Source: a bacterium (GTDB lineage: Bacteria > UBA9089 > CG2-30-40-21 > SBAY01). Taken from it: a stretch of 23,044 nucleotides of DNA. The stretch is from the NCBI GenBank assembly GCA_040757115.1, contig JBFLYA010000045.1:1-23044 (forward strand), written 5' to 3'. Shown piece by piece: positions 4,742-21,848 of this stretch. Positions within the stretch are counted from its first letter, which is position 1. Each line of letters starts with the position of its first letter. The notes under the pieces were generated by a model, which saw nothing but the letters and a program-made list of their open reading frames with translations, made no database searches and had not been told where the DNA came from. The position numbers were made by a program, and so were the translations under genes.

Positions 4742-6304
4742 ATGGCAAGAAATCATATTGCAGAACTGGAAAAACGGTTGTGGGATGTAGCAGATGAATT
4801 GCGGGCTAATTCTGATTTAAAATCATCTGAATACTCCCCACCGGTTTTAGGACTCATCTTTTTGAAATATGCGGATTATCGGTTTACTAAACAGGAGAAA
4901 ATACTTTCTGAATCCCTGATTAAATCAGGGACAAGTACTCGCCGCAAGATTGGTAAAACAGATTATCAGGCCGCTGGTGTTATGTTCTTGCCAACTGAGG
5001 CAAGATTTTCTTACCTGTTAAACCTTCCTGAAGGTGCTGACATTGGTAGAGCAATAAATGAAGCAATGGAGTCAATTGAGCGTGAAAACGAAGGCCTTGT
5101 GCTACCAAAAACCTATCACAGATTTAAAAACAACCTGCTGGTTGAATTGATAAAGCTTATGTCATCAATTCCAGAGGATATAGAAGGAGATGCCTTTGGT
5201 AAGATTTATGAGTATTTCCTTGGGAAATTTGCTATGACTGAAGGTTCAAAAGGAGGAGAATTTTTTACTCCAACTTCTATTGTTAAATTGATTGTCTCTG
5301 TAATTCAACCGTTTCATGGAAAGATACTTGATCCTGCCTGCGGTTCAGGCGGTATGTTTGTTCAGAGCGCTGAGTTCGTTGAAGAACACAAAAAGCGGGC
5401 AATTGATGTGATTAGCATTTATGGACAGGAAAAAACAAGAGAAACAGTTAACCTTTGCAAGATGAACCTTGCTGTTCATGGTCTTTCAGGTGATGTTTTA
5501 CAGGCTAATTCTTACTATGATGACCTGCACGATATGGTAGGCAAGTTTGATTTTGTAATGGCTAATCCCCCATTCAATGTAAACCGGATTGATAAAGAGC
5601 GTATTAAAAATGATAGAAGGCGTTTTCCCTATGGTATGCCTTCAGTGGACAATGGTAATTATCTCTGGATTCAGCTTTTTTACAGTGCTTTAAATGAAAA
5701 AGGACGGGCAGGATTTGTTATGGCTAATTGTGCAAGCGATGCCCGGGCAAGTGAATTGGAGTTACGGAAAAAGTTGCTTCAGGACAGAGTCGTTGATATA
5801 ATGATTGCAGTTGGTTCTAACTTCTTTTATACGGTCACCCTGCCTTGCACATTATGGTTCTTGGATAAAGGTAAACACAATACAGATTGTAAGGATAAGG
5901 TGCTTTTTATTGATGCAAGAAAAATCTATCAGCAGATAGACCGAGCACATCGTGAATTTTTACCAGAGCAGATAGAGTTTATTGCTAATATCGTTCGCTT
6001 ATATCGGGGAGAGGATATTGAAATAACACATGGCAGTGAGAAACTGACAAAAGCAACATTCCCAAAGGGCAGGTATCAAGATGTCGCTGGTTTGTGTAAA
6101 GTTGCTACATTAAAAGAGATTGAAGAACAAGGTTGGAGCTTAAACCCTGGACGATATGTAGGCGTAGTTGAAGAGGAAGTAGAGGATTTTGATTTTAAGG
6201 AACGGCTTGAAGAATTGAATGAAGAGCTGGAAGTTTTAAATACAGAAGCAAAAGAGTTGGAAGAGCAAATATCAGAAAATGTTGCAAAGATTCTGGAGAA
6301 GTAA
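4742..6304 (+). CDS. hsdM: Type I restriction-modification system methyltransferase subunit HsdM
   Basis: HsdM uses S-adenosylmethionine to methylate adenine in the target sequence chosen by HsdS. M2S is the methylase and R2M2S the restriction complex. The 520 residues are normal length. The N-terminal HsdM helical domain (about 1-140, [18 protein letters not shown]) is followed by the gamma-class N6-adenine methylase domain with SAM-binding motif I DPACGSGG at 197-204 and catalytic motif IV NPPF at 275-278. The final 45 residues are strongly acidic coiled coil ([18 protein letters not shown]) ending [11 protein letters not shown]. That ending is repeated at 7748-7778, downstream of the next gene. 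ATG start preceded by TAGGAG. Confidence 0.97.
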
Positions 6305-6306
6305 AA

Positions 6307-7689
6307 ATGGTTAAAACACATCCACCTGAATCAGAAAATATAGAATATAAATCAAATTGGAATGATGATTGCTTAAAAGTTGTTTCTGCTTTTGCCAATA
6401 CCAGCGGTGGAGAATTAATTATTGGCATAGATGATAATAAAAATATATTGGGTGTCCTTGATGCTAAAAAATTACTTGTTGATATTCCTAATAAAATAAA
6501 AGACAAACTTGGTATTATTCCTATTGTGAAGATAGAGAAAAAGAAAGGGAAAGAAATAGTTATGGTAAAAATAGAAGTATCTTCAGTGCCAATATCTTAT
6601 GATGGAAGATACTATATAAGAAGCGGAAGCACAACTCAACAATTACAAGGGCAATTGCTTACTGACTTTTTAATCAGAAAATCAGGAAAAACATGGGATG
6701 AATTTATTGAAGAAAGTTTTACTCTTAGTGATATAAATTTTGAGACTGTTAAAGAGTTTAAAAGAAAAGCTGTTGATAGGATTCCATCAATTGTTAAAGA
6801 GGATGAAATAAAAGTAATTCTTGAGAAATTACATCTTATAGAAAATGAAAAATTGAATCGGGCAGCAGTTCTACTTTTTGGTAAAGACCCTCAACGGGTT
6901 TATCGGCAATCAATCGTAAAAATAGGCAAATTCTTAACTGAAACAGAGATTCAATTCACGGATATTGTCAAAGGGAATCTTTTTGAACAAATAGAAAACG
7001 CTCTTGAAATTCTCAGGTCAAAATATCTTGTAAGTGAAATTAAATATGAAGGTATTCACCGAAGGGATATTCTTGAATATCCTTATGAATCGTTAAGAGA
7101 AGCAATTATCAATGCGTTAATTCATAGAGATTATCTCGGCAGTTCCAATATTCAGATAAGGGTTTATTCCGACAAACTTATCATTATGAATGAAGGAAAA
7201 CTTCCTCCTGAAGTGCCTGTGGACAAACTAAAAACCGAGCATTTGTCAAAACCGAGAAATAGATTGCTTGCTGAAATTTTTTATTATGCAGGTTTGATAG
7301 AATCCTGGGGCAGAGGAACAATCAAGATTGTGGATAATTGTTTGCAGCAAGAATTACCTGAACCTGATTTTGTTGAAGAATATGGCGTTATGAAAGTAGT
7401 ATTTTACAAAGATAAATGGGCCGAGGAAAATCTTAAGAAAATGGGATTAAATGAAAGACAAATAAAGGCAGTGATGTATGTAAAAGAAAAAGGTAAGATT
7501 ACGAATAAGGAATATAGAGAGATTTGTAATACATCTGAACGAACCGCAACGAGAGATTTAGCCAGTTTAGTTTCCTTAGAAATATTTGAACAAATAGGCA
7601 TTACTGGCAAGGGGACCGAGTATATTTTAAGACGCCATAAAGACGCCAAAGATGCCATAAAGACGCCTAAAAGACGCCAAGATGAATAA
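6307..7689 (+). CDS. AlbA_2 (Schlafen-like) domain protein with C-terminal GHKL ATPase-like domain
   Basis: This is the 'RecG-like' or divergent AAA-4 family of predicted DNA-binding, ATP-binding regulators often embedded in type I restriction loci; its job there is not established. In the 460 residues: the AlbA_2 domain at about 5-125 (ENIEYKSNWNDD, FANTSGGELIIGIDD, YYIRSGSTTQQL); a linker with a HATPase_c_4-type domain containing N269-ALIHRDY and YSDKLIIMNEG; then ESWGRGTIKI; and a winged-helix region at about 380-440 (RQIKAVMYVKEKGKITNKEY). The tail is basic and encoded by near-repeats of AGACGCC (7631-7680). It starts 2 bases after hsdM ends and probably was inserted between hsdM and the membrane-TIR cassette, because a copy of the hsdM 3' end follows it. 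Confidence 0.85.
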   Translation: MVKTHPPESENIEYKSNWNDDCLKVVSAFANTSGGELIIGIDDNKNILGVLDAKKLLVDIPNKIKDKLGIIPIVKIEKKKGKEIVMVKIEVSSVPISYDGRYYIRSGSTTQQLQGQLLTDFLIRKSGKTWDEFIEESFTLSDINFETVKEFKRKAVDRIPSIVKEDEIKVILEKLHLIENEKLNRAAVLLFGKDPQRVYRQSIVKIGKFLTETEIQFTDIVKGNLFEQIENALEILRSKYLVSEIKYEGIHRRDILEYPYESLREAIINALIHRDYLGSSNIQIRVYSDKLIIMNEGKLPPEVPVDKLKTEHLSKPRNRLLAEIFYYAGLIESWGRGTIKIVDNCLQQELPEPDFVEEYGVMKVVFYKDKWAEENLKKMGLNERQIKAVMYVKEKGKITNKEYREICNTSERTATRDLASLVSLEIFEQIGITGKGTEYILRRHKDAKDAIKTPKRRQDE

Positions 7690-7703: not shown

Positions 7704-7787
7704 ATGAAAAATAGTGCAACATTTCGTTGCACGAATTGTGGGAATAAAATATCAGAAAATGTGGCAAAGATTCTGGAGGTGAAATAA
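7704..7787 (+). pseudogene. 27-codon frame with a CxxC motif and a duplicated HsdM tail
   Basis: The frame begins ATG at 7704 and reads MKNSATFRCTNCGNK followed by [12 protein letters not shown] and a stop at 7785-7787. Bases 7748-7778 match the end of hsdM (6268-6298) at 30 of 31 positions and keep the same reading frame, so the second half is a copied HsdM C-terminus. The first half is a CTNCG zinc-ribbon-like piece, partly encoded by a 7-bp hairpin (GTGCAAC 7714-7720, GTTGCAC 7726-7732). I read it as a scar of gene insertion rather than a functional peptide, but translation is possible. The sequence just before the next gene, GGAGGTGA (7775-7782), can serve as its ribosome binding site. 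Confidence 0.6.
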
Positions 7788-7789
7788 AC

Positions 7790-8227
7790 ATGGAGGATAA
7801 AAATAATCTTAAAGAATATATGTTGAAGGAGATTGATATAGTTCAGGATATTATAAAGAGAATGGCTCACAATTCCTTTATGATAAAAGGATGGGCGATA
7901 ACTCTGGTTGTTGCTACTCTCCTATTGAAAGGCACAAAATATCAAGCTCTAATTGCTTTTATTCCGTTGTTAGTTTTCTGGTTTTTGGATGCGTATTTCT
8001 TGTGGCAAGAGAGAATGTATAGAAAACTACATAACTGGATTATCAGTAATAGATTGAATACCGACGAACATTTATTTAATATGAACGCTTACCGATTTAA
8101 AAATGAGGTTCAGTCAAAATTCAGAATTATGTTTTCAATAACTTTAGGATGGTTCTATGGTTCAATAGCAATTCTGACGGTAATTTATACCATTATTCTA
8201 TTTTTAACTCAAAATGGAGGTAATTGA
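7790..8227 (+). CDS. Small multi-pass membrane protein of a TIR-associated cassette
   Basis: A 145-residue protein with a charged N-terminal helix (1-28), hydrophobic segments at about 30-47 and 51-71, a charged cytoplasm-like stretch with the motif FWFLDAYFLWQERMYRKL (63-80), an amphipathic region to 112, and a third hydrophobic segment at about 113-139. I recognise the DAYFL..ER..RKL-type motif only as a feature of small membrane proteins found beside TIR-like genes, similar in style to the two-transmembrane SLATT-like effectors; I cannot assign a family with certainty. The stop is 1 base before the next ATG, and the ribosome binding site of that gene (GGAGG, 8216-8220) lies inside this gene, implying coupled translation. 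Candidate membrane effector of the TIR pair (inference). Confidence 0.75.
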   Translation: MEDKNNLKEYMLKEIDIVQDIIKRMAHNSFMIKGWAITLVVATLLLKGTKYQALIAFIPLLVFWFLDAYFLWQERMYRKLHNWIISNRLNTDEHLFNMNAYRFKNEVQSKFRIMFSITLGWFYGSIAILTVIYTIILFLTQNGGN

Positions 8228-8228
8228 A

Positions 8229-8603
8229 ATGGCGAAAAAGAGAGTATTTGTTAGTTTTGATTTTGATAACGACAAGAGTTTGAAAGATTTTATTATTGGT
8301 CAGTCAAGATTACCAGATTCTCCATTTGAAGTTGTTGATACTTCAATGAAAGAAGCCTCTCCAGAAAAAGATTGGCTGGATAGGGCTGAGACAAAAATTA
8401 AAGGTTCTGATATGGTTCTTGTTATGGTAGGGCCGAAAACACATAAAGCCCCTGGAGTTCTTAAAGAGATAGCACTTGCGAGAAAATGGAATATACCGAT
8501 TGCTCAAGTCATCGGCTATAAAGACGGTAATTATACACCGGTTCCAGACGCTGGGCGACTCTATTCCTGGAATTGGGACAATTTAAAAAAACTATTGAGT
8601 TAG
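8229..8603 (+). CDS. TIR-like domain protein 1 (ThsB-type)
   Basis: A 124-residue protein that is essentially one TIR-like domain. The first beta strand is KKRVFVSFDFDND (3-15), followed by ASPEKDW (43-49), a hydrophobic strand DMVLVMVGPKT (61-71), GVLKEIALA with Glu80 where the catalytic glutamate of NAD-consuming TIR domains is expected, and the C-terminal YSWNWDNLKKLL. The start is placed at 8229, not at the upstream in-frame ATG 8214, because GGAGG (8216-8220) is 8 bases from 8229 and the homologous N-terminus is MAKKRVF. ThsB proteins sense phage and make a cyclic ADP-ribose-type signal in Thoeris defence. That role here is inferred from family and context, since no ThsA partner is present. 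Confidence 0.82.
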   Translation: MAKKRVFVSFDFDNDKSLKDFIIGQSRLPDSPFEVVDTSMKEASPEKDWLDRAETKIKGSDMVLVMVGPKTHKAPGVLKEIALARKWNIPIAQVIGYKDGNYTPVPDAGRLYSWNWDNLKKLLS

Positions 8604-8615
8604 GAGAAAAATTAA

Positions 8616-9089
8616 ATGGCAAGAAGAGTTTATTTTGCATTTCACTATCAAAGAGATATCTGGAGAGTAAATCAGGTTAGACATGCTTGGGTTACAAAAG
8701 AAGATATAGAAGAAGCAGGTTATATTGATGCTGCTGAATTTGAAAAAGTTGAAAGACAAGGTGAGGAAGCAATCAAACGATGGATTGACAAACAATTAGA
8801 AGGGACATCTGTTACGGTTGTTTTGATTGGTTCTAAAACGGCAGAGAGAGAATATGTCCAATACGAAATCAATAAAAGTTGGAATAGGGGCAATGGACTT
8901 ATAGGAATTTATATTCATGATCTTAAAGACCAGAATGGGAACACAGATTATAAAGGTGCCGACCCTTTTGTCAAATTGGGTTACAAAGGTATTAGGACAT
9001 ACGATTGGATTTCCGATAACGGATACAATAATTTAAGTGAATGGATTGAAGCAGCGTATCAGCGCGCTCAAAACAGACAAAAACAATAG
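8616..9089 (+). CDS. TIR-like domain protein 2 (ThsB/DUF1863-type)
   Basis: A 157-residue TIR-like protein of a different subfamily from its upstream neighbour. The N-terminus MARRVYFAFHYQRDIWR is typical of the DUF1863/ThsB family, followed by RHAWVTKEDIEEAG (22-35), TVVLIGSKTAEREYVQYEI (67-85) with Glu84 as the candidate catalytic residue, and GLIGIYIHDLKD (94-105). The ribosome binding site AGGAG (8602-8606) overlaps the stop of the first TIR gene. The gene ends 12 bases before hsdS. Having two non-identical TIR proteins side by side suggests either two recognition specificities feeding one effector or a hetero-oligomer (inference). Family placement is confident; biochemical activity is not demonstrated. 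Confidence 0.86.
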   Translation: MARRVYFAFHYQRDIWRVNQVRHAWVTKEDIEEAGYIDAAEFEKVERQGEEAIKRWIDKQLEGTSVTVVLIGSKTAEREYVQYEINKSWNRGNGLIGIYIHDLKDQNGNTDYKGADPFVKLGYKGIRTYDWISDNGYNNLSEWIEAAYQRAQNRQKQ

Positions 9090-9101: not shown

Positions 9102-10274
9102 ATGCAAAAGGTGAAGATAAAAGATTTAGGAAAAATTATTACTGGAAAAACACCATCCACAAAGAAACCAGAGTTATTTGGTTATGATTATCCTTTTATC
9201 ACACCTTCGGATATTAACACATACGAGGTTTACTATGTTCAAGATACAGAACGTGGTCTTTCAAAAGAAGGATATTTGACTCAAAAGAGTAAATTGCTCC
9301 CACCAAAAACAGTCTGTTATGTTTGTATCGGTTCAACCATTGGAAAAATATGTTTGACGAAAAAACCAAGTTTTACAAATCAGCAATTGAATAATATTAT
9401 AGTTGACCAGTCACGCTATGTCCCAGAATATATTTACTATCGCTTGAGATATGAAACTCCAAAAATTCAATCAATATCTGGTGGAACGGGTTCAGGGAAA
9501 GCCATCTATAATAAAACAGCATTTGAAGAATTTCAGTTTGAAATCCATGATTTACCTTTACAGCACAAAATCTCTTCCATCCTCTCCACCTACGATGACC
9601 TTATTGAAAACAACACCCGACGGATACAAATACTTGAAGAAATGGCACAGAGGATTTATCGGGAGTGGTTTGTTGATTTCCGATTTCCAGGACACGAAAA
9701 AGTGAAGTTTGTAGATTCAGAAATGGGAAAGATTCCCGAAGGATGGGAAGTCAAAAGACTAGGGGATGCCATTGAGCTAGCCTATGGAAAGGGATTAAAA
9801 GCTTCGGAACGAAAAAGTGGAAGCGTACCAGTTTTTGGCTCAGGTGGAATTGTAGGATACCATAATCAAAGCTTGGTTAAAGGGCCAGGAATTATTGTGG
9901 GAAGAAAGGGAAATGTTGGTTCTATTTTTTGGTCAGATCGTGACTTTTTTCCCATTGATACTGTATTTTATGTAAGAACTACAATATGCTTACATTACGT
10001 CTATTATTATCTGCGGCAGATGAATTTTATAAATAGCGATGCAGCAGTTCCAGGGTTGAATAGGAATCAAGCCTATTTATTGCCATTTTTAATTCCTTCA
10101 GAAGAATTAGTGGATGTATTTCAAGAAAGGATTTGTTCAAATTTTAAGCTTGTTACGGTCTTGAAATCAAAGTGTGAGATATTACGGACAAGTAGAGATA
10201 TTCTCCTCCCCAAACTCATCTCAGGGGAACTTGATGTGTCGGATTTAGATATTGCTATAAGGGAGCAGGAATAA
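9102..10274 (+). CDS. hsdS: Type I restriction-modification specificity subunit HsdS
   Basis: HsdS recognises the bipartite DNA target and positions HsdM and HsdR. The 390 residues show the usual two-fold layout: target recognition domain 1 (about 1-150), a central conserved helix (LPLQHKISSILSTYDDLIEN then RRIQILEEMAQRIYREWF, about 150-190), target recognition domain 2 starting near MGKIPEGWEVKRL (about 210-345), and a C-terminal helix ending in RDILLPKLISGELDVSDL. Full length, with no frameshift or truncation. It is separated from hsdM by five inserted frames, whereas hsdM and hsdS are normally adjacent. Its stop overlaps the start of the next gene by one base (TAATG). The target sequence cannot be predicted by reading. 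Confidence 0.95.
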   Translation: MQKVKIKDLGKIITGKTPSTKKPELFGYDYPFITPSDINTYEVYYVQDTERGLSKEGYLTQKSKLLPPKTVCYVCIGSTIGKICLTKKPSFTNQQLNNIIVDQSRYVPEYIYYRLRYETPKIQSISGGTGSGKAIYNKTAFEEFQFEIHDLPLQHKISSILSTYDDLIENNTRRIQILEEMAQRIYREWFVDFRFPGHEKVKFVDSEMGKIPEGWEVKRLGDAIELAYGKGLKASERKSGSVPVFGSGGIVGYHNQSLVKGPGIIVGRKGNVGSIFWSDRDFFPIDTVFYVRTTICLHYVYYYLRQMNFINSDAAVPGLNRNQAYLLPFLIPSEELVDVFQERICSNFKLVTVLKSKCEILRTSRDILLPKLISGELDVSDLDIAIREQE

Positions 10275-11254
10275 TGAAAGGACAAACAGAATCTAAAGGA
10301 CAAATTGTTTTATACAAGAACCGGCTTGAGGTCAGATTAGAACAGGATACTGTATGGTTAAATTTAAATCAAATCGCCAAACTTTTTGAAAGAGACAAAT
10401 CTGTAATTTCACGTCATTTGGATAATATATATAAAACAAATGAGTTAAAGCGAACTTCAACTGTTGCATTTTTTGCAACAGTTCAAAATGAAGGAGGACG
10501 ACTTATAGAGCGTAAGATTGAATTTTTTAATTTAGATGCAATAATTTCTGTTGGCTATCGGGTAAATTCAAAAAGAGGTACGCAGTTTCGCATTTGGGCA
10601 ACAAATGTCTTAAAGAAACATCTTGTTGACGGATATACCATCAATGAAAAACGACTTAAGGTTGCCGAGCATAAATATAATGAATTACAGAACTCATTAC
10701 GGTTATTAAGCAATGTTCTTGCTCTTGACGAAGTTTCTGACGAGACCAAAGGTTTGATTCAAGTTATAACTGAGTATTCCCGTGCACTTGACATTCTGGA
10801 TGAGTATGACAATAACAGATTACCTATCCCAAAAGGGACAACTCAGTTAAAATATAGACTTACTTACCAGGAAGCGAGGATAATTATAGATGAGATGAGG
10901 GAAAAATTTAAAACCGCATCTCTTTTTGGACAGGAAAAGGATAAAAGTTTTGAAAGTTCGCTTAAAACAATTTATCAGACTTATGATGGTAAAGAGCTTT
11001 ATCCTACAATAGAAGAAAAATCGGCAAACCTATTATATTTTGTTGTCAAAAATCATAGTTTTGTGGACGGCAATAAAAGAATTGCCGCAGCGCTTTTTAT
11101 CTGTTTTCTACAAAAGAATGGAATTTTAACTCGTAAAGATGGAACGAGATGTATTGACAATAACTCTTTGGTTGCCTTAACACTGATGATTGCTATAAGC
11201 AAGCCATCAGAGAAAGATGCGATGATAAAAGTAATATTAAATTTATTGGTATAA
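10274..11254 (+). CDS. RhuM-like protein fused to a Fic/Doc domain
   Basis: 326 residues. The N-terminal half matches the RhuM 'virulence protein' family (VRLEQDTVWLNLNQIAKLF, DKSVISRHLDNIYKTNEL, and IISVGYRVNSKRGTQFR at about 96-112), a predicted DNA-binding fold. The C-terminal half is a Fic/Doc domain with the active-site motif H261-S-F263-V-D265-G-N267-K-R269. The ending GNKR, rather than GNGR, is the Doc-like variant; Doc of phage P1 phosphorylates EF-Tu, while classical Fic proteins transfer AMP. Which reaction occurs here is unknown. RhuM-Fic genes are frequent guests in type I restriction loci. No separate small antitoxin is visible next to it, so inhibition, if needed, may be built into the RhuM part (inference). 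Confidence 0.87.
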   Translation: MKGQTESKGQIVLYKNRLEVRLEQDTVWLNLNQIAKLFERDKSVISRHLDNIYKTNELKRTSTVAFFATVQNEGGRLIERKIEFFNLDAIISVGYRVNSKRGTQFRIWATNVLKKHLVDGYTINEKRLKVAEHKYNELQNSLRLLSNVLALDEVSDETKGLIQVITEYSRALDILDEYDNNRLPIPKGTTQLKYRLTYQEARIIIDEMREKFKTASLFGQEKDKSFESSLKTIYQTYDGKELYPTIEEKSANLLYFVVKNHSFVDGNKRIAAALFICFLQKNGILTRKDGTRCIDNNSLVALTLMIAISKPSEKDAMIKVILNLLV

Positions 11255-11257
11255 ATT

Positions 11258-14200
11258 ATGACATCAAAAGATAACAAGTATTCAGAATCTGCATTAGTAG
11301 AAAGACCAGCAATGGACTTATTCAGCCAATTAGGCTGGTCTGTTCAGAACTGTTTCTATGAATTTGACGAGAATGGCAAAAGTTTTCTCAGCAGAGAAAC
11401 AAAGGCAGATGTTGTTTTGGTTTCAAAACTTAAACCTGCTTTGCAAAAACTCAATCCATCTCTTTCTGAAACAGTTCTTGATGAGGCAATAAAAATACTT
11501 ACCTCGGATAGAAGTTTGATGGGGATGGTATCTGCAAACCGTGAGGTATTTGATTTTCTTAAAAATGGAATTCTTGTTTCCTATCTGAATAATAAAAATG
11601 AGCAAGTTTCTGAACGAGTCCAAATTGTTGACTGGATAAATATAGAAAACAACGATTTCTTTCTGGCTTCACAGTTTTGGATTTCAGGCGAAATGTATAC
11701 CAGGAGAGTTGACCTTTTAGGGTTTGTTAATGGTATTCCGCTTCTTTTTATGGAACTTAAAGCATCTCATCGCAACCTTAAAAAAGCCTATGATGAGAAT
11801 TTAAGGGATTATAAGTCAACCATTCCGCAATTATTCTGGTTTAACGGAGTGATTATCCTTTCTAATAGTAGTCAAAGTAGGGTTGGAACGCTATCTGCTG
11901 AATGGGACCATTTTAGCGAATGGAAAAGGATTAACAATGAAGGTGAAAAAGGTATTGTTTCACTTGACACAGTTATAAAAGGTGTTTGTGAAAAATCCCG
12001 ATTTATGGATATTCTTGAAAACTATACTTTATTTAAGGAAGAGAAAAACGGGACTATAAAAATTATTGCCAAGAATCACCAGTATTTAGGGGTTGAGAAG
12101 TCAATCAAAGCATTTCTTCAAGTGAATCAGAATAAAGGGCGGCTTGGTGTTTTCTGGCATACCCAGGGTTCAGGAAAAACAGAATCAATGATTTTCTTTT
12201 CACAGAAGATTTTAAGAAAAATACCGGGCAACTGGACATTTGTAGTTGTAACCGATAGAAACGAACTGGATGAACAGACCTATAAACGGTTTGTGCGTTC
12301 AGGGGTTATTCAGGGAAAACAGGAATGGGCTCAAAACACTGAGGATTTAAGACGATTGCTAAAAGAAGACCACCGATATGTCTTTACAACTATTCAGAAA
12401 TTCAGGACAGAAAAAGGAGCAAAGCACCCTGTTATTTCTGACCGTTCTGATATAGTTGTTATAACGGATGAGGCACACAGAACCCAGTATGATATATTTG
12501 CTATGAATATGCGCAATGCTTTGCCGAACGCAGGGTTCATTGCCTTTACCGGCACACCGCTTATTGTTGGTGAAGAGAAGACAAAGGAGGTCTTTGGTGA
12601 TTATGTCAGTATTTACAATTTTAAACAGGCAACTGATGATAAAGCAACTGTTCCACTTTATTATGAGAACCGAAAACCCAAAGTCCAGTTGGTAAACTTA
12701 AGTCTGAATGAAGATATTCAGCGCATTTTAGAAGATGCAGAACTGGATTCTGCACAAGAACAAAAGTTTGAAAGAGAATTCTCTAAAGAATACCAACTCA
12801 TTACCCGTGAAGACCGACTTGAAGACATTGCTCAGGATATCGTTTTGCATTTTATGAACAGGGGTTTTATGGGTAAGGCAATGGTGGTTTCCATTGACAA
12901 GGCTACAGCGGTAAAGATGTACGATAAGGTGAAGAAATATTGGGATAGATACGCTGATAAATTACAAAAAGATTATAAGCATGCAACAGATGTTGTCAAA
13001 GAAGAAATCGGCAATAAACTGATTGATATGCATCAAACCGATATGGCAGTTGTGGTTTCGCAATCCCAGAATGAGGTTGAGGATTTAAAAGCAAAGGGAG
13101 TGGATATCACACCGCATCGCATTAGAATGAACAACGAACACCTTGACGAAAAATTTAAGGATGCAGATGACCCATTAAGGATTGTTTTTGTCTGTGCTAT
13201 GTGGATGACAGGTTTTGATGTGCCTTCTTGTTCCACAATCTATCTTGATAAGCCAATGAAAAACCATACCCTTATGCAGACCATTGCAAGAGTAAACAGG
13301 GTTTTTGGCGAGAATAAAGTTGTAGGACTAATCGTTGATTATATCGGTGTGCTTCATAATTTGAATCAGGCACTGGCTATTTATGCTGCTCCTGTTGGAG
13401 AAGGTGGCGTTGAGACACCAATTATTGAAAAATCCGAATTGATAGAACAACTCCGTAAAGATATTCAGGAAATGATGGAGCTGTTAGATGGATGGGAAAT
13501 ATCTTTGCCAAAAATAATGGCATCTGAAGGATTAAAATGCGTCAGTCTGATAGATGATGCAGTTGAATGCATATTAGAGAGTGAAGAACGGCAGTCTATA
13601 TTTAAAGAAAAGAATGCAATTATTCAAAAGACATACAAAGCAATATTACCGGATACTTCTGCCAGTGAATTCCAGTCAGTTGTGAAGACATTACAGGTTT
13701 TAGCAGACAAATTAGCTCCAATATCGGGAGCGGTTGATATTTCTGATGTGCTTAGGAGGGTTTCAGAATTATTGGATAAATCAGTGAAGGTTGAAGCAAT
13801 GTATGTTGCAGAGACACCCGACGAATACAACGCAGGCAAAATACTGGATTTGACTAAAATTGACATTGATAAATTGCAGAAAGAGTTTAATAAAGGCCGT
13901 AGACGAATACTGGCAGAGCAGTTAAGAAAAGCAATTGAGGTTAGATTGCGTGCTTTATATATGCTTAATAAATCTCGGATGAATTATATGGAAAGATTCC
14001 AGCAATTAATTGATGAATACAATGCCGGGTCAATGAATGTGGAAGAGTATTACAGACGATTACTTGAGTTTGTTAAAAATCTGGATGATGAAGAGAAACG
14101 GGCGATGAAAGAATCTCTATCAGAAGAGGAACTTGCAATCTATGACTTGCTGGTGAATCCGCCGATTAAAATGACGCAGAAAGAGATTCTGGCAGTAAAA

Positions 14201-14431
14201 AAAGTAGCACACGACCTTCTGGAAAAACTGAAATCAGAAAAACTTGTCCTTGACTGGCGAAAAAAACAGCAGGCAAGGGCATCAGTTAAGTTATGCATTG
14301 AAGAAATACTCGAAAATCTACCACCAATATTCTCAACTGAAATCTATCATCAGAAGTGTGGTTTAATTTATCAGCATATCTATGAGTCATACTATGGAAG
14401 TGGTATGAGCGTATATGCACATCAAATTTGA
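11258..14431 (+). CDS. hsdR: Type I restriction endonuclease subunit HsdR
   Basis: HsdR is the ATP-driven translocase and nuclease of the type I complex; it cuts unmethylated DNA at a distance from the recognition site. The 1057 residues are full length. Seen in order: the PD-(D/E)xK nuclease with D152 (RVDLLGF) and E166-x-K168 (LLFMELKAS); superfamily 2 helicase motif I TQGSGKT (302-308); motif II DEAH (404-407); motif III FTGTPL (430-435); motif VI QTIARVNR (674-681); then a helical C-terminus that binds HsdM. All catalytic motifs are intact, so the system is predicted active. The ATG lies 3 bases after the RhuM-Fic stop, making hsdR the last gene of the run. Confidence 0.97.
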   Translation: MTSKDNKYSESALVERPAMDLFSQLGWSVQNCFYEFDENGKSFLSRETKADVVLVSKLKPALQKLNPSLSETVLDEAIKILTSDRSLMGMVSANREVFDFLKNGILVSYLNNKNEQVSERVQIVDWINIENNDFFLASQFWISGEMYTRRVDLLGFVNGIPLLFMELKASHRNLKKAYDENLRDYKSTIPQLFWFNGVIILSNSSQSRVGTLSAEWDHFSEWKRINNEGEKGIVSLDTVIKGVCEKSRFMDILENYTLFKEEKNGTIKIIAKNHQYLGVEKSIKAFLQVNQNKGRLGVFWHTQGSGKTESMIFFSQKILRKIPGNWTFVVVTDRNELDEQTYKRFVRSGVIQGKQEWAQNTEDLRRLLKEDHRYVFTTIQKFRTEKGAKHPVISDRSDIVVITDEAHRTQYDIFAMNMRNALPNAGFIAFTGTPLIVGEEKTKEVFGDYVSIYNFKQATDDKATVPLYYENRKPKVQLVNLSLNEDIQRILEDAELDSAQEQKFEREFSKEYQLITREDRLEDIAQDIVLHFMNRGFMGKAMVVSIDKATAVKMYDKVKKYWDRYADKLQKDYKHATDVVKEEIGNKLIDMHQTDMAVVVSQSQNEVEDLKAKGVDITPHRIRMNNEHLDEKFKDADDPLRIVFVCAMWMTGFDVPSCSTIYLDKPMKNHTLMQTIARVNRVFGENKVVGLIVDYIGVLHNLNQALAIYAAPVGEGGVETPIIEKSELIEQLRKDIQEMMELLDGWEISLPKIMASEGLKCVSLIDDAVECILESEERQSIFKEKNAIIQKTYKAILPDTSASEFQSVVKTLQVLADKLAPISGAVDISDVLRRVSELLDKSVKVEAMYVAETPDEYNAGKILDLTKIDIDKLQKEFNKGRRRILAEQLRKAIEVRLRALYMLNKSRMNYMERFQQLIDEYNAGSMNVEEYYRRLLEFVKNLDDEEKRAMKESLSEEELAIYDLLVNPPIKMTQKEILAVKKVAHDLLEKLKSEKLVLDWRKKQQARASVKLCIEEILENLPPIFSTEIYHQKCGLIYQHIYESYYGSGMSVYAHQI

Positions 14432-17406: not shown

Positions 17407-19611
17407 TTAACCAGTTACCAGTTCTGTTATAAATCTTCGCACCTCTTTATAATCATAGATATTATATCTGGCAAAGGAGGATGAAATCCCAACCTTGACA
17501 GAATATGCCTTTTGAGGAAGAACTTTAAACATATCCTCATCTGTGGCATCATCACCAATGGCTAAAATAAATTCATAATTCTTGTTCGAGATAAAATGCG
17601 TGGCTATTACCCCTTTATTTATACCAGCACTTTTAATCTCGATGACCTTCTCTCCTGATAAAATCTGGACATCGATATTTGCGGTTAAGGAGATTAAATC
17701 ATCTATTAACTCTTTGGCTCGAATAGAGGCAAGTTCAGGGTCTGATTTGCGGTAATGCCACACTAATGAAAATTCCTTTTCTTCGATAAACGAGGCAGGT
17801 AACCTATCTACGGTTAATTTAAGTAACGGGTAAAGTTTAGATTTCCAGTCAGCAGATACAGGTTTTAGCAGTAACCAGTCTTTATTTTTTTCTTTTAGCC
17901 AAACGCCATGTTCTGCGGATAAAGAAATATCTAATCGACCAAACCACTTCTTTACTGTAGATTTATCTCGACCACTAACAAGCACCACCTCTGTATCTGG
18001 ATATTCGGATAGGATCCTGATAAGTTTTAATAGGCTATTATCCGGTTTAGAGCTCTGGGGTCTGTCTGTAAGCGGGACTAATGTTCCATCGTAATCTAAA
18101 AAGATAATTCTTGAATTAGAGGTTTGAAAATCTTTTATTATCTCTTCTTTTTCCAGATGAGATAAAAGTTTTGTCATTCGGAGCATCTTTTGTTTATTCA
18201 AGTCTAAAAGTTCGGAGATAAAATCACCTGCCCACCGAATAACATCATAATCACTCAGTCTTTTCTGCATAATCTTAATTCTTCTTGTTTGTTCTTTTAT
18301 GGACATTGATAAGGCATCTTTTATGGCTTGAGCAATTTCTTGTTTATGGTTTGGGTTGATGATAATTGCCTCGCCAAGTTCCTTAGCCGCACCAGCCATC
18401 TCGCTTAAGATTAAAACCCCTTTTTTATCTGATTGTGAGGCAATATACTCCTTTGCTACCAGATTCATCCCATCCCTCAAAGGGCTGATTAAGGCAATAT
18501 CCGCAACATTATACAAGGCAACTAATTGTTTAAACGGAATATGTTTATATTGATACTGGATGGGTGTCCAGCCGACATTTCCAAACCGACCATTGATTTT
18601 TCCGATAAATTCATCAATCTTGATTTTTATCCGTTGATAGCGTTCTACTCCGATTCGAGATGGAACAACGATTAACAAAAGAGTGATTTTATTATGCCAG
18701 TGTGGATTTTCTTCAAGGAATAATTCATAGCCTTCCAGACGATTGATAATCCCCTTGGTATAATCAAGTCTATCTACGGAGAGTATAGTTTTTGTATTCA
18801 TTAAGATTCTGGCAAACTCATCTTTTTCTTTCTGGACATCAGGGTCAGCAGCCGCCGCATAAAACTTTTTATAGTGAATACCCATAGGAAAGGTATCGGC
18901 ACGAAGAATCCTATTATTTAAAGTTAGACTTCCAAGATTATGTTCTAATCCTGAAATCCGTAAAACACATCTCAGGAAACTCTGGGTATAATCAATTGTA
19001 TGAAATCCAATTAAATCTGCTCCTAAAAGTCCCTCTAATATCTCTGTGCGCCATTTTTTAGGTAAAAGGCGATATATTTCATAAGGTGGGAATGGGATGT
19101 GCAGGAAAAAGCCAATAAGTGATTCTGGCCTTTTTTCGCGGATGAGTTTTGGAAGTAACAAAAGATGATAATCATGTATCCATAAAATATCATCTGACTT
19201 TAAAATTTTACAAATTGCCTCACAAAAGAATTCATTTACCTGTTTATAATAATTCCATAAATTTTCGTTAAATTCAGCATAGATAGGAAAACAATGAAAC
19301 AATGGCCAGATAGTTTTGTTGCAAAATCCATGGTAGAAATTATCCATCTCTTTTTCCGGGATAAATACAGGTGAACAGTTATATTCCTTAATGGTTTTCC
19401 TTCTTAAGGCAGGTTGATATTTTTCTTTCACGGTTACCCCGGGCCACCCAATCCAGAGATGCTCAAGTGGTGTAAATGAAGAATCTTTCAAGGAATCAAG
19501 GTAGTCACTTAATCCAGTAACAAGTCCACCCGAACTTTTTACTAATTCCAGTGCCCCTTCTTTTTCTATAACCGTAAATGGTAATCTGTTAGAAACGATG
19601 AGTAATCTCAT
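17407..19611 (-). CDS. Bifunctional trehalose-6-phosphate synthase/phosphatase (OtsA-OtsB fusion)
   Basis: The N-terminal glycosyltransferase family 20 domain makes trehalose 6-phosphate from a nucleotide-glucose and glucose 6-phosphate; the C-terminal HAD phosphatase releases trehalose. 734 residues from the ATG at 19611. OtsA motifs: MRLLIVSNRLPF at 1-12, WIHDYHLLLLP, FFLHIPFPPYE, SVDRLDYTKGI and SPLRDGMNLVAKEYIA. OtsB motifs: D506-Y-D508-GT, VLVSGRD, SAEHGVW and GDDATDEDMF. The open frame runs 60 residues further upstream, but that part is translated mobile-element DNA (19645-19886) plus spacer and lacks family similarity. The chosen start is preceded by GGGTG about 8 bases away. Fused OtsAB of this size is known in various bacteria. 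It lies downstream of treT, with the mobile element between them. Confidence 0.94.
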   Translation of the reverse strand: MRLLIVSNRLPFTVIEKEGALELVKSSGGLVTGLSDYLDSLKDSSFTPLEHLWIGWPGVTVKEKYQPALRRKTIKEYNCSPVFIPEKEMDNFYHGFCNKTIWPLFHCFPIYAEFNENLWNYYKQVNEFFCEAICKILKSDDILWIHDYHLLLLPKLIREKRPESLIGFFLHIPFPPYEIYRLLPKKWRTEILEGLLGADLIGFHTIDYTQSFLRCVLRISGLEHNLGSLTLNNRILRADTFPMGIHYKKFYAAAADPDVQKEKDEFARILMNTKTILSVDRLDYTKGIINRLEGYELFLEENPHWHNKITLLLIVVPSRIGVERYQRIKIKIDEFIGKINGRFGNVGWTPIQYQYKHIPFKQLVALYNVADIALISPLRDGMNLVAKEYIASQSDKKGVLILSEMAGAAKELGEAIIINPNHKQEIAQAIKDALSMSIKEQTRRIKIMQKRLSDYDVIRWAGDFISELLDLNKQKMLRMTKLLSHLEKEEIIKDFQTSNSRIIFLDYDGTLVPLTDRPQSSKPDNSLLKLIRILSEYPDTEVVLVSGRDKSTVKKWFGRLDISLSAEHGVWLKEKNKDWLLLKPVSADWKSKLYPLLKLTVDRLPASFIEEKEFSLVWHYRKSDPELASIRAKELIDDLISLTANIDVQILSGEKVIEIKSAGINKGVIATHFISNKNYEFILAIGDDATDEDMFKVLPQKAYSVKVGISSSFARYNIYDYKEVRRFITELVTG

Positions 19612-19622
19612 TAAATTTACAC

Positions 19623-19955
19623 CCAATGTTATTTTAGATTTTAGGTAACCGTTCAGGGATATAGCCACAGAGTCACAGAGAACACAGAGGGAATATATAA
19701 CTACGAATGAACACGAATAATAAAAAGATTTGTAGTGCGAGGCTTTAGCCTCGCTTCTGGCAAACAGGAAAGCGAACCTAAATGTTCGCACTACATTTAT
19801 CGAATGTCACAGGTTAATTCGTGTCCATTTGTGGCTAATTTCTCTAATTCTCTGTGAACTCTGTGCCTCTGTGGCTAAACGGTTACGATTTTAGATTGCT
19901 GATTTTTGATTGAAAAATAAATCCAAAATCCGTAATCGAAAATCCAAAATTTATT
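19623..19955. repeat. Hairpin element interrupted by copy B of the mobile element
   Basis: When the 242-bp insert and one 8-bp duplication are removed, the flanks join into an arm of about 31 bases starting ATTTTAGATTTTAGATTGCT. It pairs at about 26 of 31 positions with the complement of 19920-19950 (AATCCAAAATCCGTAATCGA and following). The pre-insertion site was therefore a hairpin repeat in the treT-otsAB spacer. Confidence 0.65.
19645..19886 (+). mobile_element. MITE-like element, copy B (242 bp, perfect 8-bp target duplication)
   Basis: It starts GTAACCGTTCAGGGATATAG and ends GTGGCTAAACGGTTAC. Direct repeats GATTTTAG flank it at 19637-19644 and 19887-19894. The interior has CACAGAG motifs on both arms and a central hairpin pair GTAGTGCGAGG...GTTCGCACTAC. 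It carries no transposase. It sits 33 bases upstream of the otsAB ATG. Read toward otsAB, it is open in frame from a GTG, which produces a false N-terminal extension of that gene. Confidence 0.93.
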
Positions 19956-19963
19956 TGATACCC

Positions 19964-21184
19964 CTACAGATATACAATATCCCCTTCATAAAACATCGAT
20001 AAAAACAACAAGAGATAATCCTGGATATGTCTTGTAATCAAGAAATTATTTTTGATATGTTCTCGACCATTTTCGCCCAGTTTTTTTGCGTATTCAGGTT
20101 CATTAATAAGTCGTTTTATCCAATAAACAGTTCCTTCGATAGAGCGGGTTAAAACACCAGAATATTTATGAGTGATTTGAAGGGGTATGCCGCCAACTGC
20201 ACCAGCGATAACCGGTTTTGCCTTCCAGAGTGCCTCTGCCACAGTTAAACCAAATCCTTCTTTCAACGATTTTTGTAAAACTACGCTCGAGGCTCGTTGT
20301 AAGGCATTTATTTCAATATCGCTTGCTGGTGGAAGGAATAAAACAAAAATATCCCTATCCTTTTCTGCCTCATTTCTAACTTTGTTCAAAACCTCCATCC
20401 CTTCAGGGTCATCTGTTGCTCCGCCGCCGGCTAAAATCAGTTGACAATCAACATACTTCTTTACCTCAAAATATGCCTCAATTACACCTAAAGGGTCTTT
20501 CAAATAATCAAATCTGGAGATTTGAGTAATAATCGGACGATTTTTATCAATCCCGTATCTTTCTAAAATAGAATCTATTACATCTTCCGGTATCTCTTTA
20601 TTTTTATCACTTAACGGGTCAATTGACGGAGAAATAAGAACCTGCGGTATGCTAAGTTCCCTGGAAAAGGCTGGTGCTGAAAAGACAGCTGTATCATACT
20701 GGTTAATATATTGTTTTAAAAACTCCCAGATGTCTTTTTGTGGAGTTGAGAAATCTATATGGCAACGCCAGAGCCATTTTTTATCAAGATTCTTCTTTTC
20801 CTCAACTAAGGCAATTGGTTGAGAATCATGAACAAAAATAATATCACCAATAAGATTTAACTCCTGGGCATTGTTACGATTTATTTCGATAAAATATTCT
20901 AACTCTTCATCTGGAAACTCGGTTTTTACCCCATGTAAGGCATTATGAATCTTTTTGGTTATCACAAAAAACCTTTCATTCCCTTTAATAACATCCCATC
21001 TAAAATCTATTCCTAACTGTTGAATTAAAGGTAACATCCTGGTCAGGATTTCAGCCACACCACCGCCAACCGCGGTTGAGTTTATATTCTGGATAACCTT
21101 TCCTTTGAGACAGTTAGCTAAAAAGTACAGGTCATCTATTACCTCTTGACCAACAATCTTTGTATAATCATTAATATTTTGCAT
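19964..21184 (-). CDS. treT: Trehalose synthase TreT-like glycosyltransferase (GT4)
   Basis: TreT makes trehalose directly from a nucleotide-activated glucose and free glucose, reversibly. The 406 residues match the size of archaeal and Thermotoga TreT (about 410). Diagnostic stretches are NSTAVGGGVAEILTRMLPLI at about 34-53, GIDFRWDVIKGNERFF at about 58-73, KKIHNALHG, and in the C-terminal GT-B half QISRFDYLKDPLGVIEAY, LAGGGATDDPEG and EGFGLTVAEALW, where the two glutamates eight residues apart form the EX7E nucleotide-sugar site. The ATG overlaps the end of the upstream DUF5752-like gene by 14 bases, so the two form an operon. A related GT4 synthase with another acceptor remains possible. 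Confidence 0.88.
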   Translation of the reverse strand: MQNINDYTKIVGQEVIDDLYFLANCLKGKVIQNINSTAVGGGVAEILTRMLPLIQQLGIDFRWDVIKGNERFFVITKKIHNALHGVKTEFPDEELEYFIEINRNNAQELNLIGDIIFVHDSQPIALVEEKKNLDKKWLWRCHIDFSTPQKDIWEFLKQYINQYDTAVFSAPAFSRELSIPQVLISPSIDPLSDKNKEIPEDVIDSILERYGIDKNRPIITQISRFDYLKDPLGVIEAYFEVKKYVDCQLILAGGGATDDPEGMEVLNKVRNEAEKDRDIFVLFLPPASDIEINALQRASSVVLQKSLKEGFGLTVAEALWKAKPVIAGAVGGIPLQITHKYSGVLTRSIEGTVYWIKRLINEPEYAKKLGENGREHIKNNFLITRHIQDYLLLFLSMFYEGDIVYL

Positions 21185-21812
21185 ATTTTTCCACCAGCGA
21201 GATAATTTTTCCCCTTAAACTTTCGAGGGTATAAGCATAAGGATCTAAATTTGCCATTTTGTTAGCCAGTTGAGCATAACCAGCATCCCTGAACCATAAA
21301 GAGAAATCGTTATCTTCCTTTTTCAGTCTTAACCTTGCCTCAAAGATATGGAAATACAAGGAATCAGCACTTATTTTTTTGACTATATCCTTAAATTCGC
21401 TGAGATTGTTTGCCACATAAGGAGTTTTTAAGATAAAACTTTTTGAAGATACAAAATAAAACGCCTCATCTTCAGGACACTGGACATTCCGAGCGTCTTT
21501 TAAAAGGTGTTGTTCGATTATTTCCACAAATTTTTTCCTTATCTCTTCAATCCAATGAAACTGGATGATATTAATACTGAACAATTTTTCACCCAGTAGT
21601 TTCTCATTCAAGACATTATTAACCCAGTAGGCAAAATCGTTTGGAGGTTCTGGAACAAGATATTGATATTGTTGTAAAAACCTGTGAGTATGATGATAGA
21701 TTGATGAGCCGGGAACTGTTTTTATCCCGGCTAATAATTCTTTTAAATCCCTTGCTTTTTTACCTAAGAGTATGGTTTGATTAAATCTGGTATAAAATAA
21801 AAATGGTTCCAT
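21171..21812 (-). CDS. DUF5752-like protein linked to trehalose synthesis
   Basis: A 213-residue soluble protein from the ATG at 21812. I recognise it as the DUF5752 type from the pattern SIYHHTHRFLQQY at about 38-50 followed by PNDFAYWVNNVLNEKLLGE (about 59-77) and WIEEIRKKFVEIIEQHL; function unknown. Upstream in-frame starts (TTG 21848, ATG 21833) are rejected because a perfect promoter (21820-21848) covers them. It overlaps treT by 14 bases, suggesting that the two proteins act together, perhaps as a regulatory or accessory partner of TreT (inference). The gene shows no signal peptide or membrane segment. Confidence 0.78.
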   Translation of the reverse strand: MEPFLFYTRFNQTILLGKKARDLKELLAGIKTVPGSSIYHHTHRFLQQYQYLVPEPPNDFAYWVNNVLNEKLLGEKLFSINIIQFHWIEEIRKKFVEIIEQHLLKDARNVQCPEDEAFYFVSSKSFILKTPYVANNLSEFKDIVKKISADSLYFHIFEARLRLKKEDNDFSLWFRDAGYAQLANKMANLDPYAYTLESLRGKIISLVEKYAKY

Positions 21813-21819
21813 AATAAAT

Positions 21820-21848
21820 ATTATATTCAGCATCCTATCAGATGTCAA
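21820..21848 (-). promoter_or_regulatory. Perfect sigma-70 promoter directly before the DUF5752-treT operon
   Basis: On the minus strand, TTGACA (21848-21843), 17 bases, then TATAAT (21825-21820): both boxes and the spacing match consensus. Only 7 bases separate the -10 box from the ATG at 21812, so the expected initiation base is the A of the start codon or its neighbour. The mRNA would be leaderless, and no ribosome binding site precedes this ATG. Confidence 0.85.

Follow-up and report, generated by a model that had tools for sequence, protein, structure and literature searches.

Within the 23,044-nucleotide stretch of bacterial DNA analysed here (the window), a type I restriction-modification operon was found to be complete, with hsdM, hsdS and hsdR all present and intact, and to enclose a gene for a small membrane protein (TM) followed by two genes for TIR-like proteins (TIR1 and TIR2). 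The question raised by this locus is whether the three small genes act together as a defence system related to Thoeris and, if they do, what part the membrane protein takes in it.

Gene content of the operon

The features of the locus are collected in Table 1. The original prediction had placed three small genes between hsdM and hsdS; all three are open and stand in the right order, but an AlbA_2/Schlafen gene upstream of them had been overlooked. A RhuM-Fic gene lies between hsdS and hsdR. The most likely translation start of TIR1 is 8229 and not the ATG further upstream at 8214; a GGAGG motif at 8216–8220, inside the TM gene, precedes this start. With this start the gaps are 1 base (TM to TIR1), 12 bases (TIR1 to TIR2) and 12 bases (TIR2 to hsdS), so that the predicted spacing of 1 to 12 bases and the predicted ribosome binding site within the previous gene were both borne out.

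A GTGCAAC hairpin is located between the AlbA_2 gene and TM (7714–7732) with a T run next to it on the minus strand, and is terminator-like on that strand. Further along the window, a trehalose cluster on the minus strand (17407–21848) encodes a trehalose-6-phosphate synthase/phosphatase fusion, a TreT-like glycosyltransferase and a DUF5752 protein.

Table 1. Features of the restriction operon and the embedded genes (positions in the window).
Feature	Position	Strand	Evidence
hsdM, type I restriction methyltransferase	4742..6304	+	Pfam N6_Mtase E 1.8e-84, HsdM_N E 1.2e-17
hsdM 3' tail, duplicated upstream of TM	6267..6307	+	41-nt direct repeat, 88% identical to 7747-7787
AlbA_2/Schlafen-HATPase_c_4 gene, 460 aa	6307..7689	+	Pfam SLFN_AlbA_2 E 7e-19, HATPase_c_4 E 2e-21
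Scar, copy of hsdM 3' tail right before TM start codon	7747..7787	+	direct repeat
TM, three-helix membrane protein, 145 aa, PDC-M50A family	7790..8227	+	PADLOC E 2e-51, residues 8-139
TIR1, 124 aa, Glu80	8229..8603	+	Pfam ThsB_TIR E 2e-6; fold match; tree
TIR2, 157 aa, ThsB homologue, PDC-M50B, Glu84	8616..9089	+	Pfam ThsB_TIR E 3.4e-26; PADLOC; PDB
hsdS, specificity subunit	9102..10274	+	Pfam Methylase_S E 1.5e-33
RhuM-Fic gene, PADLOC candidate PDC-S23	10274..11254	+	Pfam Virulence_RhuM E 1e-24, Fic E 4e-11; PADLOC E 8e-131
hsdR, restriction subunit	11258..14431	+	NCBIfam hsdR E 3.5e-147

Origin of the arrangement

The hsdM-tail repeat aligned with a score of 63, against a maximum of 24 for shuffled sequences. 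In a metagenome-assembled genome of another lineage (L021), the order TM-TIR1-TIR2-hsdS-hsdR is the same (DNA 78% identical over 1202 bases), and a 105-nt hsdM tail occupies the corresponding position, preceded by a YhcG nuclease gene where the window has AlbA_2. The junction between hsdM and TM is intact in a further locus (L014). Taken together, the repeat, the second scar and the intact junction indicate that the cassette once followed hsdM directly and that other genes slotted in later; these later insertions between hsdM and the cassette left copies of the hsdM end. The scars illustrate how restriction operons come to hold a stack of defence genes.

An operon that has accreted unrelated AlbA_2 and RhuM-Fic genes, with YhcG at the same slot elsewhere and hsdM-tail scars as traces, could also have gathered TM and the TIR genes as independent passengers without a joint function. 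The arrangement does not appear to be due to chance, because the second genome has the same order and because the association of TM with TIR genes recurs across bacteria and archaea, as described below.

Linkage of TM and TIR genes across genomes

Relatives of TM were identified by sequence scans in archaea, in many bacterial phyla, on plasmids and on a few viral contigs. An alignment of four closer TM proteins was used for the TM scan, eight diverse ones being too divergent. Across 89 loci, TIR genes accounted for 76 of 148 immediate TM neighbours (genes of at least 90 aa), for 13/126 genes at distance two and 3/111 at distance three, and for a single one of the 639 genes at distances 4–15. 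The TM and TIR families, whose co-occurrence had been proposed as a check, are thus linked far above background, both in and outside restriction loci. Among 85 TM-linked proteins scanned for TIR labels, at least 69 matched ThsB_TIR and 52 matched TIR_2; one supposed TIR neighbour (L083) was RecA, a false positive of the profile and the single such case among the 85. An adjacent TIR was present in 12 of 15 TM loci from a Bacteroidota sample picked regardless of neighbours, and a TIR was near TM in four of nine loci from a Bacillota sample (the phylum of a Clostridia genome).

The TM-linked TIR proteins vary: some stand alone, some are repeated and some are fused with SLOG, Roc-COR or ATPase (AAA) modules. 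In one locus (L085) TM lies beside a Roc-COR protein whose match to TIR is weak. No fusion of TIR to TM was found among the loci scanned. The pair is carried by many plasmids, including those of E. coli and Klebsiella, where TM is followed by a TIR gene, and in a Vibrio phage TIR-TM occurs near an integrase gene. Among 5426 complete E. coli genomes the TM-TIR form was present in 10, every time on a plasmid, which makes tests in laboratory strains practical. That the pair recurs away from restriction loci, in bacteria, archaea, plasmids and phages, contradicts an assembly of mere passengers, which we regard as very improbable.

A different neighbourhood was observed in genomes of the Beggiatoa/Thiomargarita type (L049, L051, L058, L062, L063, L066), where a type II secretion pseudopilin gene comes after TM. 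In one of these loci a protein of 399 aa (L049:4881-6080) has a domain resembling nucleoside deoxyribosyltransferase, and similar-sized genes occur in the other five; this protein is possibly a different partner of TM.

The membrane protein

The hydrophobic segments of TM comprise residues 28–48, 49–73 and 113–144. A model predicted from 73 sequences was all-helical (mean pLDDT 92.6, pTM 0.82), with a long helical hairpin (4–45, 50–87), two short helices and a last helix at 117–142. R24, K33, F63, D67 and R78 were invariant in the 73 homologues and N28, W35, P59, W64 and E74 nearly so; part of the conservation at FWxLDAY and RMAxNS reflects bias, as peptides from those stretches were used in the scan. 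Judging from the helix register, the polar residues R24, N28, K33, D67, E74 and R78 are expected to lie close together, where the first two membrane helices face the cytosol.

Pfam and NCBIfam hold no family for TM, and no ligand-binding domain was recognisable in it. The PDB yielded no relative of TM by sequence or by fold, and Foldseek searches against the PDB and viral models gave zero matches at E <= 0.001. The top VIA-align score (Z 9.6), to ESCRT-III-like helical hairpins, was set aside because common arrangements of helices reach such values. A weak structural hit to DUF2270 (prob 0.94, E 0.43) was accompanied by a short motif, NWAIT, that is similar in the two. SLATT/DUF4231 and DUF2270 families resemble TM in being small helical membrane proteins, and kinship with either found no support, the hhalign probabilities lying under 1% with thin profiles of 4–5 sequences. 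A DUF4231 membrane protein was observed in a separate locus (L171:952-1818) with TIR genes of the TIR1 profile on both sides, which suggests a second membrane family paired with TIR1-type TIRs.

The two TIR proteins

Both TIR1 and TIR2 exceeded the Pfam ThsB_TIR cut-off (Table 1), in agreement with their original description as two ThsB-type TIR-like proteins. TIR2 matched the PADLOC models of ThsB (E 6.5e-65) and PDC-M50B (E 3e-59) and the ThsB structures 6lhy and 9b7d (E 1.4e-34), with Glu84 of its YEI motif opposite the conserved ThsB glutamate. TIR1 gave PDB profile matches to EcThsB (8wcf) and a B. cereus TIR (8fz9) at E 0.004–0.007, with Glu80 in the same column, and its model, which was built from only six sequences (pLDDT 80.6), matched 8fz9 at E 3e-7 and also EcThsB 8wcf and NAD-cleaving TIRs such as SARM1. 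The predicted candidate glutamates were correctly numbered, and comparison with TIR proteins of known structure put both Glu80 and Glu84 at the TIR catalytic position. Three columns are nearly invariant across 85 diverse TIR-labelled proteins of TM loci, and this glutamate (E84) occupies one of them. On the strength of family membership and these conserved glutamates, TIR1 and TIR2 probably catalyse a reaction on NAD+.

TIR1 lineage and caspase-like proteases

Close relatives of TIR1 (65–96% identity) accompany TM and another TIR in five loci (L016, L021, L053, L054, L068), and also in L118. The trio of TIR1, TM and TIR2 is present in at least five distant hosts and its gene order differs between them, which again speaks against independent accumulation. 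The Sporomusa locus (L053:6722-10033) encodes TIR1, a TIR-SLOG protein (616 aa), TM and TIR2, and it is possible that two effectors are combined there with two TIRs.

Caspase-family genes adjoin more distant TIR1 relatives on Methylorubrum, B. subtilis and Providencia plasmids, where the caspase identity was taken from the record annotation and confirmed by PADLOC. Random genomes with a caspase beside a TIR1 relative were also found (L119-L122, L129, L130, L136); the TIR1 partners in L128 and L137, which had been guessed to be caspases by their length, were housekeeping genes. In a maximum-likelihood tree the TM-linked TIR1 proteins formed one clade (support 97/91) nested within the caspase-linked TIRs, with a root that rests on the long TIR2 branch. 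One TIR lineage therefore has a caspase-like protease as its neighbour in some hosts and TM in others. The simplest reading is a replacement of the caspase by TM in this lineage, and such a replacement speaks for TM as the effector. A TIR gene beside a caspase gene is also the composition reported for type IV Thoeris, in which N7-cADPR, the product of the TIR, activates a caspase-like protease (Rousset et al. 2025, as described in PMC12847820).

Solo TM genes

No labelled TIR was found near TM in 26 of the 89 loci, some of which are contig ends or hold missed TIRs (e.g. L085). Solo TM genes about 70–83% identical to that of the window, with neither TIR nor transposase, were recovered from several loci (L027:8364-11407, L028:3298-5933 and others). 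Some lie inside housekeeping operons (grpE-TM-dnaK in an ANME-1 genome, GTPase-TM-cysS), and similarity between the solo loci and the others is confined to the reading frame plus no more than about 110 bases upstream of it. Purifying selection acts on the solo copies (dN/dS about 0.1 in unsaturated comparisons). Among 16 genomes with a solo TM, five had a ThsB_TIR, seven a TIR_2 and six neither, these being metagenome-assembled genomes that may be incomplete. An obligate tie of TM to TIR proteins did not survive the finding of many intact solo copies.

Since an effector would be useless without its activator, solo TM proteins may respond to signals of another kind, or the role of TM may be that of an antidote. 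As an antidote, TM would hold toxic TIR NADases off at the membrane until infection, and solo genes would be orphan antidotes against the TIR systems of others. An orphan antidote is more sensible than an orphan pore, the solo genes are common, conserved and selectively maintained, six of them in genomes without a detected TIR, and the tight translational coupling of the cassette would suit this role as well. It is nevertheless hard to reconcile a specific protein-binding antidote with one TM family that pairs with ThsB-type, Roc-COR-TIR, TIR-SLOG and TIR_2 proteins, and in the TIR1 lineage TM seems to replace a caspase, which is a known kind of effector. A fusion of TM with a HIT domain points to a nucleotide instead, and overall we consider the antidote role unlikely.

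HIT nucleotide hydrolases

In four loci (L006, L009, L011, L073) a HIT nucleotide hydrolase gene was found no more than two genes away from TM; these were the sole HIT genes in the loci scanned. On a Rhodococcus ruber plasmid (L166:2533-3423) a HIT domain with an HVHVH motif is fused to TM in a single protein, and the fusion gene is flanked by a TIR gene on one side and by drmD, a DISARM gene, on the other. As a lead only, the linkage and fusion suggest a nucleotide messenger, which HIT would perhaps remove. They also raise the question of whether HIT enzymes tune ADP-ribose immune signals.

Proposed mechanism

The reading that we favour, and hold to be somewhat probable, is that the cassette is a Thoeris-like abortive-infection module in which an NAD-derived messenger made by the TIR proteins triggers TM to breach the membrane. 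In a first step, phage infection or interference with the restriction system would activate one or both TIR enzymes. TIR1, TIR2 or both would then turn NAD+ into an ADP-ribose-type messenger, as their family and conserved glutamates suggest; judged by their lineages, the signal of TIR2 could be 3'cADPR-like, as that of ThsB is, and the signal of TIR1 could be the one made by the caspase-linked TIRs (N7-cADPR in type IV Thoeris). The messenger would finally act on TM, a step proposed from partner swapping, operon structure and conservation, and TM would assemble or open and so breach the membrane.

The roles could also be reversed, with TM as a membrane sensor of phage entry or membrane stress that recruits and activates the TIRs, which would themselves kill by NAD+ depletion. 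In favour of this, TM has a membrane position and, in its model, long cytosolic helices, the membrane component is constant while the TIRs are variable, and TIRs can act as direct NADase effectors (PMC12847820). Against this, the small ThsB-type TIRs closest to TIR2 make messengers for a separate effector (PMC11204291), and many TM-linked TIRs carry fused SLOG, Roc-COR or AAA domains that resemble sensing modules in their own right. A sensor role for TM is in our view quite unlikely.

If the favoured messenger-triggered module is true, it adds a membrane effector without an obvious ligand-binding domain. A broader proposal, which we put forward tentatively and with less than even confidence, is that TM represents a new class of membrane effector gated by ADP-ribose signals, without a known ligand-binding domain and driven by two TIR lineages (type I-like and type IV-like), on which two NAD-derived signals may converge, which would have replaced the caspase in the TIR1 lineage and for which HIT would be the off-switch.

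Comparison with known systems

A ThsB-type TIR protein with a predicted catalytic glutamate, a criterion for Thoeris, is present here twice, as TIR2 and as TIR1. The locus is like type I Thoeris (ThsA SIR2-SLOG with ThsB) in that TIR2 is a ThsB homologue with its glutamate at the same place, and it differs in having a small membrane protein where the effector would be. No SIR2-SLOG ThsA was detected among the operon proteins scanned with Pfam and PADLOC, and a STALD search of the whole genome gave no match, its control likewise matching nowhere. With type II Thoeris (ThsA TM-macro with one or two ThsB) the locus shares a membrane effector candidate and two TIR partners, as in E. coli CFT073, where a membrane effector has two TIR partners (PMC11204291); TM differs in having no Pfam macro match and in being all-helical in its model. 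The predicted absence of ThsA was thus confirmed among the operon proteins scanned, where neither a SIR2-SLOG nor a TM-macro gene was found. The likeness to type IV Thoeris (TIR with a caspase-like protease) lies in the nesting of TIR1 among caspase-linked TIRs, and was drawn from the tree and from the caspase-family neighbours of the TIR1 relatives that are nearest outside TM loci, rather than from a characterised type IV ThsB. No caspase-like ThsA was found among the operon proteins scanned; TM stands in its place.

The closest counterpart is PDC-M50, a phage defence candidate of PADLOC-DB 2.0, of which TM is the A and TIR2 the B component in the same operon, with TIR1 intervening. TIR1 is outside the definition of the pair (PDC-M50B at only E 0.016). 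PDC entries stem from the 'guilt-by-embedding' survey of Payne et al. 2024 (bioRxiv 2024.01.29.577857, as cited in PMC12988326 and PMC13356809), and the pair in the window is likewise embedded in another defence system, the setting in which PDCs were discovered (PMC12988326). In the literature searched there was no mention of PDC-M50 and no report of anti-phage activity for it. We know of no mechanism for it. The cassette is consequently not uncatalogued, its core pair being listed already. The original prediction of a Thoeris-like system with TM as effector remains the best reading and is strengthened by the kinship of TIR1 with caspase-linked TIRs. The pore-type action of TM and the two sensors that the prediction also named are conjectural. 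The comparison gives PDC-M50 a testable mechanism and, by partner swapping, places it in the TIR signalling family.
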